Virus record (IMG/VR): IMGVR_UViG_3300029264_000529
Span: 1 to 45,570 of that record
Strand: one strand, 5' to 3'
Origin: a virus
DNA length: 45,570 nt
A model generated the notes under the pieces. That model worked only from the letters and a program-made list of their open reading frames with translations. It had not been told where the DNA came from and ran no database searches. The translations under genes and the position numbers were made by a program. Positions 8,274 through 20,223 of this stretch are shown piece after piece (position 1 is the stretch's first letter; the number at the start of each line of letters is the position of its first letter).

Positions 8274-8942
8274 TTAATTTTCCTGTGTGCCAACGATGCG
8301 GTAAATATGCGCAATTTCACCGATAGAAAATAATTTATTTTCAGTACCTTGTGGTGCGTTGTAAAACTGTAATGTCAGGTTTCCCGCGCTATCAAGTGCC
8401 GCGACCCTGCCAATCAGAACGCCGCCGTCAGTCAATTCAAGCAGGGCGTGACGCCCCTGATTTACCGGCTGGCTGGGGTTGATATAAACCACATCCCCCC
8501 TGGTATAGCGTGGTTCCATGCTGGCATCGGGGACGTAGGCAGCAAAGGCATCAGGTACGCCCACGATGGGGTCAATCCGTTTGACGGTGCCGCGCGGTGC
8601 CTGGTGATTAAGCCGATATTTGCCATCCGGCCCGGTATAGCCAGCGATGGGCACCGGTTGTTCCTGCTGGCTTATGGGCTGGGTTTCAAAATGCGCCGGG
8701 GTGTTTGCGCCCATACTGCCGGGCGTGATGCCCAGCATTTCCTCAACGCTAACGCCCTGGGAATCCGCAAGTTTGCTGAATGTTTCCAGCCTGGGGGTGG
8801 TTTTGGTTTTCCCCTTTAAAAAACCGCGCAGGGTGGCTTCGCTTAACCCTGCACCGCGCGCAAACGCGGTCTGGTTCAAACCGCGATTTTTCATGAATTT
8901 GATAAGCGCGTCGCGCACCTGATCGTTTGTCAAGTTAGCCAT
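8274..8942 (-). CDS. CI-like repressor (XRE HTH + S24 domain)
   Basis: 222 aa. Residues ~7-60 form an XRE-type helix-turn-helix (LNQTAFARGAGLSEATLRGFL). After a linker with a cleavage-like IAGYTG (~98-103), an S24 domain begins at DASMEPRYTRGDVVYI (~139-154). The catalytic Ser (141) is present, but the expected Lys block reads GVLIGRV, so Gly/Arg replaces the lysine (~178). RecA-stimulated self-cleavage may therefore be lost or altered. The start at 8942 avoids a 13-residue extension. It is divergent from the Cro-like gene, as in lambdoid immunity regions. Confidence 0.9.
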   Translation of the reverse strand: MANLTNDQVRDALIKFMKNRGLNQTAFARGAGLSEATLRGFLKGKTKTTPRLETFSKLADSQGVSVEEMLGITPGSMGANTPAHFETQPISQQEQPVPIAGYTGPDGKYRLNHQAPRGTVKRIDPIVGVPDAFAAYVPDASMEPRYTRGDVVYINPSQPVNQGRHALLELTDGGVLIGRVAALDSAGNLTLQFYNAPQGTENKLFSIGEIAHIYRIVGTQEN

Positions 8943-9008
8943 CGTCTCGCTTTCATTTGCTGGGGTAAACGCAGGGTACACCGATTGGCGTCGTTATCTG
9001 TATCGCAA

Positions 9009-12953: not shown

Positions 12954-13646
12954 ATGTCTGATTGCACCAAGAAAACCAGCATCGGGGCTGCATTTGTTGG
13001 CGGGAAGTCTGCCAAGGGCGGTTCCGGCGAGCGGCATAAGGACGATTTTTACCCGACGGAAATTGAAGTTTTCGAGGGGTTGTTTCGCCGCTTTCCACAT
13101 TTGCGCGGGCGCAAGATTTGGGACCCGTGTTGCGGCAATGGCGTAACCGATCGCGTGATGCAATCACATGGCTGTCAGGTGATTGCCACTGATCTTGTCT
13201 ATCGGGGATATGGCACCGGCGGCGTTAATTTTCTGTCGCAATACCGGCCCCGTGCCGATACCGCCATTACCAATCCACCCTTTGCCAACAATTTCCCGGC
13301 CCTGTTTGTTGAACATGCGATGCGCCTGCATTTGGCGGAATTCTGGCTGTTGCTAAAATCCACCTGGCAACATGCGGGCAGCCGCTTGCCCTTGCGTCGC
13401 CGTTATACCCCGAAATGGAAAATCGAACTGGCCTGGCGGCCTGATTTTAATGGCAAGAAAAACCCGGTGATGGAATGCGCATGGTTTGGCTGGTCGCGCG
13501 ACTGGACCCAGCCTTACACCATGCTTGATGTTATCGAAAAACCGAATATGGGAAATCTTGACCTGTTCGGTGTTTCGCATTCGGCAAGTGAGGCTGCAAA
13601 GCCCCAGGCGCGTGCCAATGATAACAGTCAGTTTGGGTTGTTATGA
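12954..13646 (+). CDS. DNA methyltransferase, NPPF-type (adenine-N6 or cytosine-N4)
   Basis: 230 aa, class I SAM-dependent fold. SAM-binding motif I is WDPCCGNG (residues 56-63) and the catalytic motif is NPPF (107-110), typical of exocyclic amino methyltransferases on DNA. There is no restriction partner nearby, so it is probably an orphan protecting phage DNA or regulating phage genes. The sequence downstream of NPPF (HAMRLHLAEFWLLLK) follows the usual pattern. The target site cannot be predicted. A minus-strand operon lies directly downstream in convergent orientation. Confidence 0.85.
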   Translation: MSDCTKKTSIGAAFVGGKSAKGGSGERHKDDFYPTEIEVFEGLFRRFPHLRGRKIWDPCCGNGVTDRVMQSHGCQVIATDLVYRGYGTGGVNFLSQYRPRADTAITNPPFANNFPALFVEHAMRLHLAEFWLLLKSTWQHAGSRLPLRRRYTPKWKIELAWRPDFNGKKNPVMECAWFGWSRDWTQPYTMLDVIEKPNMGNLDLFGVSHSASEAAKPQARANDNSQFGLL

Positions 13647-13663
13647 AGCAGGGCGCTGTAAAT

Positions 13664-14317
13664 TCACGTTTGGTTTTTGAAGTTCATGTGCAAGCGCCTT
13701 ACATGTCCGGTGCAGCTATTGATAAGGTGAAGCTGTTGTTCCGTCTTTTCGAGGTCAATGTCCTTCTCTCCCTGCCGGGATGCCGTAATTGTGCCTTTTA
13801 CCCATTCGATTGCGTTAAGAGCGCGCGCGATTTCAGTAGTTGTTTTGTCTACTTCCGCAATCAGTCCAATGTTATCGGGGGACGTGCGGGGAATGCTGTC
13901 AAGGTAGTCGATCAGTTCGTGGTGGAATTCCGCCAGCGATCCAAGATGCGGTTCAATATTTTGTTGCAGCTTCAAGATTGCTGTCTCTCTAGTGTGGAAC
14001 ATGATTATAAAACCGCCGTGCACAGGAACCCGCCAAGGTTTCACGCGCTCTATCTTTCTGATTATTTTGTGCAGTTCGTGGGCAAGAGCCGTGGTGTACC
14101 TTTTTCTTTCTGCCACCTTGTCCAGGTGCCTCTGGTATTGAAAAAGAATAACTGCAAGCAGGCTACCAGCAAACGCACCAATCAGGCTTTGCCATTCTCT
14201 AAGCCATTCCATAAAGCCGCCCTGCGATGCGCCCATGCCCCAAAAACCGAAACAAAGCAGGGCAAGGATGGGGATTTTAATAAAGACCCAAGCGGGCAAC
14301 CATTCGCTGATTTTCAT
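13664..14317 (-). CDS. two-helix membrane protein, third gene of reverse cassette
   Basis: 217 aa with membrane segments near residues 10-30 (VFIKIPILALLCFGFWGMG) and 43-60 (SLIGAFAGSLLAVILF), followed by a charged helical domain (HLDKVAERKRYTTALAHEL). Same layout as the protein at 12278-12904. It follows the SWIM gene by 9 nt in the minus-strand cassette. No family recognised beyond prophage membrane protein. The cytoplasmic part could sense or bind something while anchored; this is inference. Confidence 0.72.
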   Translation of the reverse strand: MKISEWLPAWVFIKIPILALLCFGFWGMGASQGGFMEWLREWQSLIGAFAGSLLAVILFQYQRHLDKVAERKRYTTALAHELHKIIRKIERVKPWRVPVHGGFIIMFHTRETAILKLQQNIEPHLGSLAEFHHELIDYLDSIPRTSPDNIGLIAEVDKTTTEIARALNAIEWVKGTITASRQGEKDIDLEKTEQQLHLINSCTGHVRRLHMNFKNQT

Positions 14318-14326
14318 GGATGTGCC

Positions 14327-14662
14327 CTAGCGCCGCATCGCGCCAGCAAGGTCTTTCTTGGCCCTGGCAAGCTGCTTTTTGGCCGCGTCGGCAATACGTT
14401 CGGCATCGATGACGCGCTGATAAGCGGTTTCAATATCGGACCCGGCAAGCAGTTCTGCCAGTCTTGGCAATTCATGTTCGTTATCGCTGACAAGCGCCTT
14501 GATTTCGCCATTCATCAACCAGAACCGATGTTTGCAATATTGTCCGCTTTGTCCGGCGGCGCAGGTGCAATAGGCATTCAAATTATTGTCGCTGACCTTC
14601 TCAAACGTGACCCGATAGGGTTCGATCTGGCTGCCTTGAACCAGAAAAACAAGTTTGTGCAT
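14327..14662 (-). CDS. SWIM-type zinc-finger protein, second gene of reverse cassette
   Basis: 111 aa. Residues ~31-46 read YCTCAAGQSGQYCKHR, which fits the SWIM zinc pattern CxC...CxH. SWIM domains bind DNA or proteins. The remainder is a helical, Ala/Arg-rich tail (AERIADAAKKQLARAKKDL). The ATG at 14662 follows a GTG at 14665 that could also start it. It sits 24 nt after the 273-aa gene and 9 nt before the membrane gene, so the three look co-transcribed. Confidence 0.75.
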   Translation of the reverse strand: MHKLVFLVQGSQIEPYRVTFEKVSDNNLNAYCTCAAGQSGQYCKHRFWLMNGEIKALVSDNEHELPRLAELLAGSDIETAYQRVIDAERIADAAKKQLARAKKDLAGAMRR

Positions 14663-14686
14663 CACGATGTCTTTCGTTTTCGGCGG

Positions 14687-15508
14687 CTAAATGTCTTTGA
14701 GTTTGGTGAATGTAATACCCAGATGTTTGACAAACTCGGACTGGGTCATTTTATGCCTGGTTTTGTCGATGATTTTTGGCTGACCACACACATTACCGGT
14801 ACGCAGGTTGTATTCGTAAAATTCAACTGTACCCTCTGCCATTATTCCGGTGTCATTGTTGAACTTGTCAGGAATGGCGTGTTCAATCTGGATCATGCGG
14901 CTGGCTTTATCCCAGCCGCCTTCATGGTCGTAAAATGTGTGGCCTGTGCCAAAGCTGTAAATAGCCGGATTACCATGTTTCCAGTAACGCGGGATGCGGG
15001 TGTATTCCTGTGTCTTGGTGCCTTTATTCAGTCTTTTGGACCATTCCGGCGATTGCATTACATCCATCATGCTGTCGTAAATATCGGTTACGATATAGCC
15101 GGATGTCGTCATTTTCTTATCTTTGTGGATTTTATAATAGCTATGCGATCGCGGCGGCCAAACCGGCGGCGGGGTCCAGTTATTTTCGTTTGCCAGTGCG
15201 ACGAAATACTCGGTTGGCGTTACGGTGCTGATTTCATCTTTGCCGCTTATGCTTGTGATTGTCGCAAGGCTGATTTTAAGCGGTATGCGGCTTTGAGGAT
15301 CATTTGCAATGATGCGTACAAACTGCCCGCCTTGCGCGGTTTCTTCATATTGCAGTTTGGTTATGATGGCATCATGTTCGGGCCAGTCACCGTCGTTGGT
15401 GATATAGGCAATGCGAACATGCAGCCGCAATTTATCAGCAATCGTGATGGTTTTCTTTGCTTTGAATTTACTGTCGTCGGGTTCGATAATTGCGGTTTCG
15501 TCTTGCAC
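14687..15508 (-). CDS. hypothetical protein, 273 aa, first gene of reverse cassette
   Basis: No family recognised. The start is GTG at 15508 with a strong GGGAGG 5 nt upstream. The first third is beta-rich (ITIADKLRLHVRIAYITNDG, then a FVRIIANDPQ block), resembling a small beta barrel. The middle contains a conserved-looking aromatic part (WTPPPVWPPRSHSYYKIH) and the end has TQSEFVKHLGITFTKLK. No membrane segment or signal peptide. It leads a three-gene minus-strand operon against the replication genes and directly abuts the immunity-RNA leader. Confidence 0.7.
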   Translation of the reverse strand: MQDETAIIEPDDSKFKAKKTITIADKLRLHVRIAYITNDGDWPEHDAIITKLQYEETAQGGQFVRIIANDPQSRIPLKISLATITSISGKDEISTVTPTEYFVALANENNWTPPPVWPPRSHSYYKIHKDKKMTTSGYIVTDIYDSMMDVMQSPEWSKRLNKGTKTQEYTRIPRYWKHGNPAIYSFGTGHTFYDHEGGWDKASRMIQIEHAIPDKFNNDTGIMAEGTVEFYEYNLRTGNVCGQPKIIDKTRHKMTQSEFVKHLGITFTKLKDI

Positions 15509-15551
15509 CGATGCCTCCCGTTATTGGTCTCCCCGGCGGTATATTCAAGAT

Positions 15552-15570
15552 TCCTGATTGCAGGAGTCAA
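15552..15570 (-). promoter_or_regulatory. candidate promoter/operator of the reverse cassette
   Basis: Minus-strand TTGACT (15565-15570) resembles a -35 box; the adjacent perfect palindrome TCCTG-ATTG-CAGGA (15552-15565) lies where a repressor would block it. No convincing -10 is seen. It is upstream of the 273-aa gene. Confidence 0.4.
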
Positions 15571-15619
15571 CGCGAAAAACCTTTTTGCGTGTAATATTAA
15601 CATCTTCCCTCAACCAGCC

Positions 15620-15648
15620 TTGACGAGCGTTTCCACCAGGCGTATGTT
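15620..15648 (+). promoter_or_regulatory. promoter of the immunity-RNA leader
   Basis: TTGACG (15620-15625), a 17-nt spacer and TATGTT (15643-15648) make a plausible sigma-70 promoter, placing the transcript start near 15655. It precedes a structured leader and the helicase operon. Confidence 0.55.
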
Positions 15649-15676
15649 TTCAGGACTTGCATCATTGGTGCGGGTA

Positions 15677-15853
15677 GCTGCGGCAAAATCCGCAGCCGGG
15701 ATTGGCGTCCCGCTTGTTACACGGCGTCCGAACCGCGCCAAATATCTATTTGCGCGGTTTTCCTATGGTCGGGCGCGTGGGAGGGCTTTCGAGCCCGCCG
15801 CACCGTGTAGCGGTAACGCCAATCCTGCGCGTCCGGCCACCAGGGATTGGCGT
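15677..15853 (+). ncRNA. P4 CI / P1 C4-like immunity RNA leader
   Basis: A structured leader with three matching parts. A: GGATTGGCGT (15699-15708) and TACACGG (15718-15724). B: CCGTGTA (15803-15809) and ACGCCAATCC (15816-15825), perfectly complementary to A. C: GGATTGGCGT (15844-15853) and TACACGG (15878-15884), identical to A, with the second part inside the ribosome site of the gene at 15894. A-B pairing encloses hairpins at 15731-15759 and 15783-15796 (GGGCT-TTCG-AGCCC). A further hairpin lies at 15677-15696. B can pair with A or C. The same arrangement (seqA-seqB-seqC) governs P4 immunity, and C4 RNA of P1/P7 blocks translation in this way. Ash/Icd-like peptides are often annotated over such RNAs; reading frames here show similar fragments (AAKSAAGIGV). 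Confidence 0.78.
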
Positions 15854-15875
15854 CTCCGGCGGCTGGTTAACCCAG

Positions 15876-15893
15876 TTTACACGGAGGTTCACC
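15876..15893 (+). promoter_or_regulatory. ribosome site inside RNA target C
   Basis: TACACGGAGG (15878-15887) contains both the seven bases complementary to RNA segment B (15803-15809) and the GGAGG Shine-Dalgarno, 6 nt before the ATG at 15894. Pairing with B would occlude translation initiation. Confidence 0.7.
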
Positions 15894-16205
15894 ATGTCTG
15901 ATCATGGTCGCGGGCGGATTCTGCCCGATTATTCCCAAAATATACAATCTGCCATCGCGAATTTATCGCGTGTGGTTGCTCATGAATTTGGCATAGACCG
16001 GCCATTAAGTGCGCCTGTCGCTGCGCCGCTTTGCGACCCTGTCGCCGCGATCATCCTTGGCCGTATTGCCGATGATCTGGAGGATGTTACCACCCACCTT
16101 GACCCCGATTTCACGCTTGACCGTGAGGGCACCGAATGGGCGCGTAAAAAACTCGAAAAAGCCATCGCCGATTTGCGCTTTATCCAGACCGGGCGGGGTG
16201 TGTGA
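15894..16205 (+). CDS. hypothetical protein under RNA control, 103 aa
   Basis: Begins MSDHGRGRILPDYSQNI at 15894 behind GGAGG. It is helical and acidic (DDLEDVTTHLDPDF), with no recognised family. The reading frame is open further upstream to 15702, but that part is the structured RNA and is not believed to be coding. The gene is the first translated after the C4-like leader, so it may be the ant/epsilon-type target of the immunity RNA, or simply a leader gene of the replication operon. It overlaps the next start as TGATG. Confidence 0.72.
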   Translation: MSDHGRGRILPDYSQNIQSAIANLSRVVAHEFGIDRPLSAPVAAPLCDPVAAIILGRIADDLEDVTTHLDPDFTLDREGTEWARKKLEKAIADLRFIQTGRGV

Positions 16206-16417
16206 TGAAAATGCCGGTTGTTCTACCTTGCGATGTGAAGGGGTGCGAACGGGCTGGCAGTCACATCATGGTTAACCATGGCCGATGGTGCGGAAAGCAC
16301 ATTCCCCCCGAATTTTACCGGCACAAGCGTATTGCCGAGGGCACCGAAGCCCCCGATGAACCGATTGGCGACATCCCCGCTGATCAGCGTAAACCAAAAC
16401 AGGGAAAGTTATTGTGA
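16205..16417 (+). CDS. small putative zinc-binding protein, 70 aa
   Basis: 70 aa with a cysteine/histidine pattern C-x4-C...H...C-x2-H in the first half (CDVKGCERAGSH then WCGKH), which suggests one zinc site. The tail is Pro/Lys-rich. Start at 16205 shares its A with the previous TGA; a GTG at 16202 is also possible. It lies one base before the helicase start region, so it is translationally linked to replication. Confidence 0.7.
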   Translation: MKMPVVLPCDVKGCERAGSHIMVNHGRWCGKHIPPEFYRHKRIAEGTEAPDEPIGDIPADQRKPKQGKLL

Positions 16418-16418
16418 A

Positions 16419-17915
16419 ATGACAGATAATCACATGGATACAGGGCAGGAAACCAGCACCGGGTTTGAGGTGGCAAAGCAAATCATCAATGGTGCCAAGG
16501 TGGTCGGTATTGATGGTGTTAAACTCGATCCCGATGAAGTCATGTATGACGTTCACGCGATGAATGAATATTATGCGCTGGTGATGATGGGCGGGAAGCC
16601 GATGATTTTGGAGGAAAATTTCAAGCGCGGGGAATTTCCGGTCGAGGATCGTTTGGGGTTGATGCCGGTAGATGCGTTTCATGCGTGGTTTGCCAATCAG
16701 GAACAGCGCATTTCCAGCGAAAAAAAGGTTTCATGGTCAAAATTGTGGTTTCGAGACCCGGAGCGCCGCCAATATCGCGGGGTTTCGTTTGCGCCGGGCA
16801 CGTCAACGCCATCGGGAATTTATAACCTGTGGCGCGGGTTCAGCCTGCGGGCAGATTATGAGGATTGTGCGAAAAAGTGCGATATTTTCCTTGATCATGT
16901 GCGCACCAATATTGCGGGCGGGAACGAAGAACATTTCAGGTTCATCATGGGCTGGGCGGCGCATATGCTGCAAAAACCGACGGAACGGGCCGGGGTGGCT
17001 GTGGTTTTGCGCGGCGGGCAGGGCAGCGGCAAAACGCTGTTCGGGCAGACCCTTGGCCGGTTGATAGAAGATCATTACGCGCTGGTCGATGATCCGCGCT
17101 ATGTGGTGGGGAACTTTAACGCCCACCTGGCGTCTACGTTGCTGTTGCAGGCTGACGAGGGATTTTGGGCGGGCGACAAGCACGCCGAAGGCCGGTTAAA
17201 GGGCCTTGTCACGTCCGATTATCACATGATCGAACGCAAGGGCGTGGATGCTTTTCGCGTTAAAAACTACGTTCATTTGCTGGTGACGTCTAACAATGAC
17301 TGGGTGGTGCCTGCGGGGCACGACGAACGGCGATTTGCGGTGTTTGATGTATCCAATAACAGCCAGCAAAATCGAAATTATTTTGGGGAAATGATCAAAC
17401 AGCTTGATGATGGCGGGTATGAAGCGTTACTTGGGTATCTGCTTTCATTTGATATTGATAGCATCAGCTTATGGGATATTCCCAAAACAGCGGCATTGGC
17501 CGACCAAAAACTGTCCAGTCTTTCTATCGAGGAATCGTGGTGGCTGGTGTGTTTGCGGCGGGGGCATGTCACATTTCAGAGTGACGGGGCGCAGCATTGG
17601 ATGCCATACTTGCCCAAAGCGGATGTGTACGGCAATTACCTGCAATGGGTGACACAACGCGGGCGGCGGTTTCCGCTCACCGAGGAACAGTTTGGCAGGC
17701 GATTAATGCGCGTGTGTCCGGGTATTTCGGCGGGCAGGCGGCGATTTGATCAAGGGGCGCGGAAATATGTTTATCAGTTTCCGCCGCTAGAAGAATGCCG
17801 CCGGTTGTTTGCTGAAATGATCCGTACCGATATTGATTGGTATGACGGTGATTTCGATGATCAGGATGTCGCGCAGTCTGGCCCTGATGCTGATTTTTCG
17901 GCCACGGAACTATGA
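16419..17915 (+). CDS. SF3-type replicative helicase / primase-helicase family protein
   Basis: 498 aa. The C-terminal half carries a helicase core: Walker A GGQGSGKT (residues 199-206), Walker B-like LLLQADEG (241-248), sensor LLVTSNN (287-293) and an arginine pair HDERRF (301-306), matching the DUF5906/primase-helicase family. The N-terminal 150 residues (MYDVHAMNEYYALVMMGG) are the usual lead-in of this family and lack an obvious primase active site, so the separate primase at 11121 may supply priming. GGGAAAG precedes the ATG. A putative origin follows. Confidence 0.9.
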   Translation: MTDNHMDTGQETSTGFEVAKQIINGAKVVGIDGVKLDPDEVMYDVHAMNEYYALVMMGGKPMILEENFKRGEFPVEDRLGLMPVDAFHAWFANQEQRISSEKKVSWSKLWFRDPERRQYRGVSFAPGTSTPSGIYNLWRGFSLRADYEDCAKKCDIFLDHVRTNIAGGNEEHFRFIMGWAAHMLQKPTERAGVAVVLRGGQGSGKTLFGQTLGRLIEDHYALVDDPRYVVGNFNAHLASTLLLQADEGFWAGDKHAEGRLKGLVTSDYHMIERKGVDAFRVKNYVHLLVTSNNDWVVPAGHDERRFAVFDVSNNSQQNRNYFGEMIKQLDDGGYEALLGYLLSFDIDSISLWDIPKTAALADQKLSSLSIEESWWLVCLRRGHVTFQSDGAQHWMPYLPKADVYGNYLQWVTQRGRRFPLTEEQFGRRLMRVCPGISAGRRRFDQGARKYVYQFPPLEECRRLFAEMIRTDIDWYDGDFDDQDVAQSGPDADFSATEL

Positions 17916-19581: not shown

Positions 19582-20223
19582 ATGGCATCAAGTTCTGACG
19601 TTGTTTCAAAATCCGAATTCGCCAAACTGATTGGCGTCTCAAAGGCGCGGGTGTCGCAGTTGATCAGTGAGGGCAAGATTTCAGGGGAAGCCCTTCGTGG
19701 TGATGGCCGGTTGGCAAAGATCGTGGTGGCGGTAGCGACGGGGCAACTGAAGGCGACGCTGGACATTGACCAGCGGGCGGCAAATGGCCGGGCCGATCTT
19801 TCTGCCGATGATCCGGTATTTGATGGCCTTTCATCGGGCAGCAATGAAGCTTCGCCCCGGACGCTGACAACGGATGATCTCTACAAACAGGAACGGTTGC
19901 GTAAACTCCAGCACGAAAACGAGGAACTGGAAGAAAAACGCCGCGAAAAGAAAGGTCTATACGTACGATCCGATGCAATGCGCTCTACCGTGTTGCGGCA
20001 TGTCGGCGCGATGATTGACGGGATTGAAGCTGATCTTGGACAGTGGGCCGAGGAACTGGCGGCGGAAACCGATGGTTCTATCAAAAAAATAAAACACATT
20101 CTGCGCACCCAATTTAGGGAAACGCGCACGAAGCTGGCGCGACACAATCGCGAACTGCAAAACGAACTTCCTGAATATCACGAGGAAGCCATAGGCAGCG
20201 AGGATGACGCCGGCGCGTCCTGA
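19582..20223 (+). CDS. terminase small subunit (Nu1-like)
   Basis: 213 aa. N-terminal winged helix-turn-helix (FAKLIGVSKARVSQLISEGKI, ~13-33) for DNA recognition, then an acidic linker and a long charged helix (LYKQERLRKLQHENEELEE, ~96-114), as in Nu1-like small subunits. It should bind the packaging site and recruit the large subunit, which begins 12 nt downstream. The identity is from this architecture and neighbour order. Confidence 0.82.
   Translation: MASSSDVVSKSEFAKLIGVSKARVSQLISEGKISGEALRGDGRLAKIVVAVATGQLKATLDIDQRAANGRADLSADDPVFDGLSSGSNEASPRTLTTDDLYKQERLRKLQHENEELEEKRREKKGLYVRSDAMRSTVLRHVGAMIDGIEADLGQWAEELAAETDGSIKKIKHILRTQFRETRTKLARHNRELQNELPEYHEEAIGSEDDAGAS

Follow-up and report, generated by a model that had tools for sequence, protein, structure and literature searches.

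A C4/P4 CI-type antisense RNA module before the primase-helicase operon of a temperate myophage, and sRNA-Xcc1 as a probable C4-type RNA

The window, by which we mean the whole 45,570-nucleotide stretch analysed (IMG/VR record IMGVR_UViG_3300029264_000529), carries upstream of its primase-helicase gene a leader that, judged from its sequence, is very probably an antisense immunity module of the C4/P4 CI type. Taken alone this module is a further case of a known C4 kind, and the larger result is the sRNA-Xcc1 (RF02221) of its relatives. We consider it highly likely that the C4-type antisense immunity RNAs have in this family a second branch, a mobile and fast-changing A-B-C cassette that swaps with C4 before the same gene and would silence phage antirepressors, phage replication operons and, where it travels with symE, a toxin, because the two families exchange slots, each sRNA-Xcc1 pairs with its own A and C segments, compensatory changes are present and antirepressor genes are among the targets.

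The phage is a temperate myophage of about 45 kb with relatives in Thalassospira, encoding an integrase, a CI-like repressor, a gpA-type terminase, a tail sheath and a baseplate; the sheath gene bears out the contractile tail proposed in an earlier note on this DNA. The helicase of the window has close relatives in viral contigs and in two genomes of Thalassospira, and the host is therefore probably Thalassospira or a near relative. The CI repressor reported in the earlier note is present at 8277–8981, with HTH and S24 domains, and a small ORF divergent from it reads by eye as a Cro-type protein. The two layers of immunity which that note envisaged would not be new, since P1 already combines C1 with C4. 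Its further suggestion, that such a module is out of the ordinary for an alphaproteobacterial phage, is only moderately borne out: sampling detected C4 in 4 of 337 alphaproteobacterial genomes and in 5 of 29 from Thalassospira.

The leader module and its operon

A sigma-70-like promoter (TTGACG-17-TATGTT, 15620–15648, plus strand, as are all parts of the module) was located by a consensus scan, with the leader transcript expected to start near 15655; its equivalent in L002, a relative with a helicase 97% identical to that of the window, is TTGATT-17-TAGCTT in the same place. Downstream lies an isrK-like leader RNA (15677–15764), the equivalent of the P4 seqA RNA and of Gifsy-1 IsrK, which matched Rfam RF01394 at 60.7 bits (cut-off 50), followed by the C4 antisense RNA, or segment B (15761–15844), which matched RF01695 over the full model length (1–87) at 64.6 bits (E 1.9e-11), above the curated cut-off of 45. 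As positive controls, P4 CI and P1 C4 scored 74.9 and 68.8 bits on the C4 model, and P4 isrK scored 60.8. The model of the c4-a1b1 target family (RF03163) gave 37.6 bits in the window, under its cut-off of 46.7, as was also the case for P4 (44.1). A blastn search of the module against named phages gave no match.

Segments A, B and C lie where the earlier note had placed them, and B is complementary both to A and to C in the 10-bp and 7-bp parts that it described. Within A, a1 (GGATTGGCGT, 15699–15708), which sits in a hairpin, is complementary to b1, and a2 (TTACACGG, 15717–15724) to b2. In B, b2 (CCGTGTAG, 15803–15810) occupies the loop of the second hairpin and b1 (ACGCCAATCC, 15816–15825) lies 3' of that hairpin. 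Segment C presents c1 (GGATTGGCGT, 15844–15853), complementary to b1, and then c2 with the ribosome-binding site (TTACACGGAGG, 15877–15887), complementary to b2; the c2 core (TTACACGG, 15877–15884) runs into GGAGG (15883–15887), with the ATG at 15894 six bases on, and the second part of C therefore takes in the ribosome site of the gene at 15894, as had been proposed. The UUCG tetraloop hairpin is likewise there (GGGCU-UUCG-AGCCC). Between A and B, a terminator-like hairpin (AACCGCGC...GCGCGGTT, 15731–15761), recognized in the sequence and the isrK alignment, is followed by only four T, and it was not called by a terminator scan because the T run is short. By the GGW rule derived for processing starts in Acinetobacter (PMC5320573), GGT at 15767 is the probable site at which RNase P would cut out the C4 RNA. 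A plus-strand open frame of 752 aa (13643–15901) crosses the leader and overlaps a minus-strand gene (14687–15508; ribosome site GGGAGG), of which it looks like a shadow.

The observed score of the ordered two-part match was reached in 1 of 5000 dinucleotide shuffles for the A region and in 9 of 5000 for the C region, and the leader (15655–15900) folds with A paired to B at z = -4.5 against shuffles. The same pairing method recovered the A-B-C sites of both P4 and P1 (in P4, b2 CCTGTGAA with TTCACAGG and b1 TTCTCAC with GTGAGAA). The Rfam and folding checks that the earlier note had proposed thus both favour its central claim of a P4 CI/P1 C4-like antisense RNA before the helicase operon, with C4 and isrK above their cut-offs and the A-B-C sites intact.

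The predicted direct target gene, ORF103 (15894–16205), begins MSDHGxG and has no Pfam or PHROG match. Its end is overlapped by a Cys/His-rich small ORF of 71 aa (16202–16417), conserved in close relatives, and behind this lies the primase-helicase (DUF5906, 16419–17915; PF19263 1.8e-22, PHROG DNA primase 2.8e-49). A replication primase/helicase in the operon downstream of C4 is the mark of P4-type immunity, and small ORFs followed by primase/helicase is the P4 gene order. No antirepressor domain, the mark of the P1 type, was found by Pfam or PHROG in ORF103, ORF71 or the helicase.

An arrangement as in P1 is nevertheless conceivable, in which ORF103 itself is the true target, as an unrecognized antirepressor that would neutralize the CI-like repressor, and the replication genes are affected only secondarily. 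ORF103 falls into no known family, which leaves room for it to work as an antirepressor beyond being the first gene of the replication operon; C4 and sRNA-Xcc1 usually precede antirepressor genes in Thalassospira and elsewhere, and ORF103 has its MSDHGxG start in common with those behind C4 in Thalassospira (L208 and L209). We regard this arrangement as unlikely, since ORF103 has no antirepressor domain and the operon runs directly on into the primase-helicase. Moreover, ORF103 and the Bro-N antirepressors of L208 and L209 are alike in the first ten or so residues only (15894–15930 in the window), which fits recombination at the module border; this limited likeness suggests that recombination of the cassette takes place shortly after the start of the target gene.

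In the sequence, the promoter leads into A within the isrK-like RNA, then the hairpin, the C4 RNA and finally C, which spans the ribosome site where the replication operon begins. On the preferred P4-like reading, by analogy with P4 and P1, this leader would be transcribed constantly in the lysogen and the C4 RNA would be cut out of it by RNase P. The C4 RNA would then pair with nascent A, favouring early termination, and with C, masking the ribosome site of ORF103; with that site hidden, the untranslated transcript would end before the primase-helicase, probably through Rho as in P4. An incoming phage of the same allele would be silenced in trans and one of another allele would not, and the CI-like repressor would work alongside, at promoters of its own.

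Alleles of the A, B and C segments

Despite its near-identical helicase, L002 has wholly different b1, a1 and c1: its b1 TTGGTCGAG is matched by TCGACCAA in A and by CTCGACCAA in C, as against b1 ACGCCAATC with GATTGGCGT in the window. L208 and L209 keep the b1 of the window and differ in b2, where CCGTTTG goes with CAAACGG at A and C, as against CCGTGTA with TACACGG in the window. The covariation in homologues for which the earlier note called is present in these three-way compensatory changes. Over 40 loci, the fit of B to its own A averaged 15.4 versus 12.1 in cross pairs, and that of B to its own C 14.0 versus 11.1, differences reached in 0 of 20,000 permutations in each case. The score was the two-part ordered match, a score for the longest run only having separated own from cross pairs weakly; the A region of the window entered this set shortened and the dinucleotide-shuffle test in full. 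Such concerted change is, at the level of sequence, the pattern expected of heteroimmune alleles, for which P1 and P7 are a precedent (PMC5320573), and the natural alleles would predict which phages exclude each other.

These comparisons bear on two other readings of the repeats. That they are a decayed or non-functional C4 remnant might be suggested by relatives from which the module is wholly absent, yet in the window the stems, the loop and the two pairing sites are all complete, and from one allele to the next the three sites vary together; we consider a remnant very improbable. More improbable still is that the repeats arose by chance or are DNA sites, such as operator or origin repeats, and not RNA. 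Short inverted and direct repeats do occur near phage origins, and the window holds two further exact copies of GATTGGCGT, at 8983–8991, just before the CI-like gene, and at 19629–19637. A DNA-site origin is at odds with the Rfam covariance match, the fold z-score, the homology to P4 and P1 and the compensatory changes at single positions, and nothing in relatives corresponds to the copy that precedes cI. Because the repressors of relatives lack it, that copy is taken as chance, which probably holds for both extra copies; cross-talk between A and the cI mRNA through 8983 was considered and rejected, no match being found near the repressors of relatives with other alleles.

In L004, L005 and L006, neither C4 nor sRNA-Xcc1 was found upstream of the same helicase, which shows that the replication operon can be under other regulation; the slot in L005 is taken up by an unrelated gene on the opposite strand. 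Distant helicase homologues (33–38% identity) had neither C4 nor sRNA-Xcc1.

sRNA-Xcc1 in the same slot

In L003, L007 and L009, whose helicases are 77–85% identical to the window helicase, sRNA-Xcc1 and not C4 fills the slot, at 65–70 bits (L003, 5159–5243; L009, 5165–5249). A near-identical replication operon thus has C4 upstream in some phages and sRNA-Xcc1 in others. Similarly, a Bro-N antirepressor 84% identical between two Thalassospira genomes stands behind C4 in L208 and behind sRNA-Xcc1 in L214, and sRNA-Xcc1, like C4, was found in 5 of the 29 Thalassospira genomes. These natural swaps point to the sRNA-Xcc1 family as a C4-type RNA.

The sRNA-Xcc1 RNAs of L003, L007 and L009 carry A and C segments of their own, and those of L210–L214 and L051–L130 likewise behave as C4-type A-B-C RNAs, mostly before antirepressor genes. 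Across 64 viral and 32 other loci, pairing with own A and own C exceeded that of cross pairs (0 of 20,000 permutations each). The viral set comprises distinct loci taken from the matches listed for a 24-base pattern from the sRNA-Xcc1 core, which occurs in at least 120 viral contig stretches; among these 64, exact 6+6 matches were present at A in 46 and at C in 41, versus 3.7% (A) and 2.8% (C) of cross pairs. Three-way compensatory changes are present as well: in seven related sRNA-Xcc1 modules, substitutions at single positions are matched across all three segments, A, B and C (b2 TCTGGA, TCAGGA or TCTCGA with TCCAGA, TCCTGA or TCGAGA, respectively), and both sides had changed in 6 of 15 pairs for A-B and equally for B-C. 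Shuffles reached the A-B values in 0 of 500 and the B-C values in at most 1 of 500, and versions slid out of register paired at 26–60% versus 95–96% in register.

Of 349 Pseudomonadota genomes sampled, 53 carried sRNA-Xcc1, 37 of them with a score above the curated cut-off, and there were up to nine copies per genome. Viral copies mostly precede antirepressor genes. Among the matches listed, 55 downstream proteins were scanned, and the N-terminal domains found were KilA-N (12), Rha (9), AntA (9), Bro-N (8), ORF6N (5) and P22_AR_N (4), giving up to 47 of the 55 with an antirepressor domain, provided that the domains do not overlap. In the named phage Rac-SA53, sRNA-Xcc1 (78.1 bits) lies directly before the annotated ant gene. 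Elsewhere the following gene is sometimes symE. SymE toxins account for two targets among the genomes, and the RNA is complementary to the ribosome site of each. In L021 (1501–1836) and L039 (minus strand), sRNA-Xcc1 lies directly before symE-type toxin genes with complementarity at their ribosome sites, and here the same cassette would probably serve in an antitoxin-like way. In each of three Thalassospira contigs, two modules lie 11–14 kb from one another, and one of the two precedes a Bro-N antirepressor (G662 contig C6, 246912 and 259490; G675 contig C126, 11161 and 22271; G676 contig C9, 22780, which is C4, and 36338, which is sRNA-Xcc1); these are probably two RNA circuits in one prophage.

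L009 has sRNA-Xcc1 only, with no C4 match at E<=1, and sRNA-Xcc1 would therefore work like C4 yet stand outside the Rfam C4 family. In the Rfam tables sRNA-Xcc1 is without a clan, whereas C4 has one. The two share their junction layout, but no connection between them came from the Rfam C4 model or from a usable joint model, and the likeness may reflect homology or convergence; a covariance model built for sRNA-Xcc1 from an RNAalifold structure was poor (10 pairs) and was not used. Hairpin I of sRNA-Xcc1 (columns 18–45 of alignment A4) contains a strongly conserved AAUACAA ... ACCCGnAAGGGG AAUA, absent from C4, which may bind a protein.

C4 itself is on record in proteobacteria and phages (PMC2864571). 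sRNA-Xcc1 was reported as an 88-nt Xanthomonas RNA whose target was not known there (PMC2996969), and recent views have treated it as a virulence sRNA, vesicle cargo or a symE-side oddity: in Xylella it is vesicle cargo with predicted plant targets (PMC12189769), and with symE it forms an integron cassette, 'a divergent regulatory mechanism' (PMC12444791). No link between sRNA-Xcc1 and C4 was found in these three papers; the original RNA Biol 2011 study lies outside this coverage and may mention one earlier. Reading sRNA-Xcc1 as C4-type would give it concrete targets, namely the ribosome site of the next gene.

Comparison with known systems

The sRNA-Xcc1 of close relatives shares with the window module its slot, its three-way-junction layout, the position of b2 in the loop of hairpin II and of b1 in the 3' linker, its own A and C, and a target ribosome site. 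It differs in being a separate Rfam family with a shorter closing stem and the conserved AAUACAA internal loop in hairpin I, and it was published as an integron-encoded, trans-acting sRNA. The Group 1 C4-like sRNAs of Acinetobacter baumannii (PMC5320573) have the C4 fold and the GGW processing start in common with the window; they are multi-copy sRNAs with many genomic copies and no assigned target, whereas the window holds a single intact phage module. In the isrK-orf45-anrP region of Salmonella Gifsy-1 (PMC4825925), an isrK-like leader with a hairpin terminator is likewise followed by a processed RNA, a first small ORF and then the regulated gene, but the targets there are antirepressor/antQ and IsrK is described as activating in trans.

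C4-ant of P1 and P7 belongs to the same C4 family, its a'/b' segments pair with one target upstream and another downstream, the first small ORF has its ribosome site covered and the phage also encodes a protein repressor; in the window, by contrast, the target is a replication operon with no recognized antirepressor. P4 (CI RNA, seqA and seqC) has both Rfam families, isrK and then C4, arranged as in the window, the same two-part pairing to A and C, with C over the ribosome site, and a primase/helicase in the silenced operon. P4 is a satellite phage, whereas the window is a full 45-kb myophage that encodes a CI-like repressor and structural genes of its own; its T run after the first hairpin is weaker, and ORF103 and ORF71 stand where P4 has other genes between CI and alpha. 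The window adds a clean and very probable P4-style immunity switch in a tailed phage, probably of a marine alphaproteobacterium.
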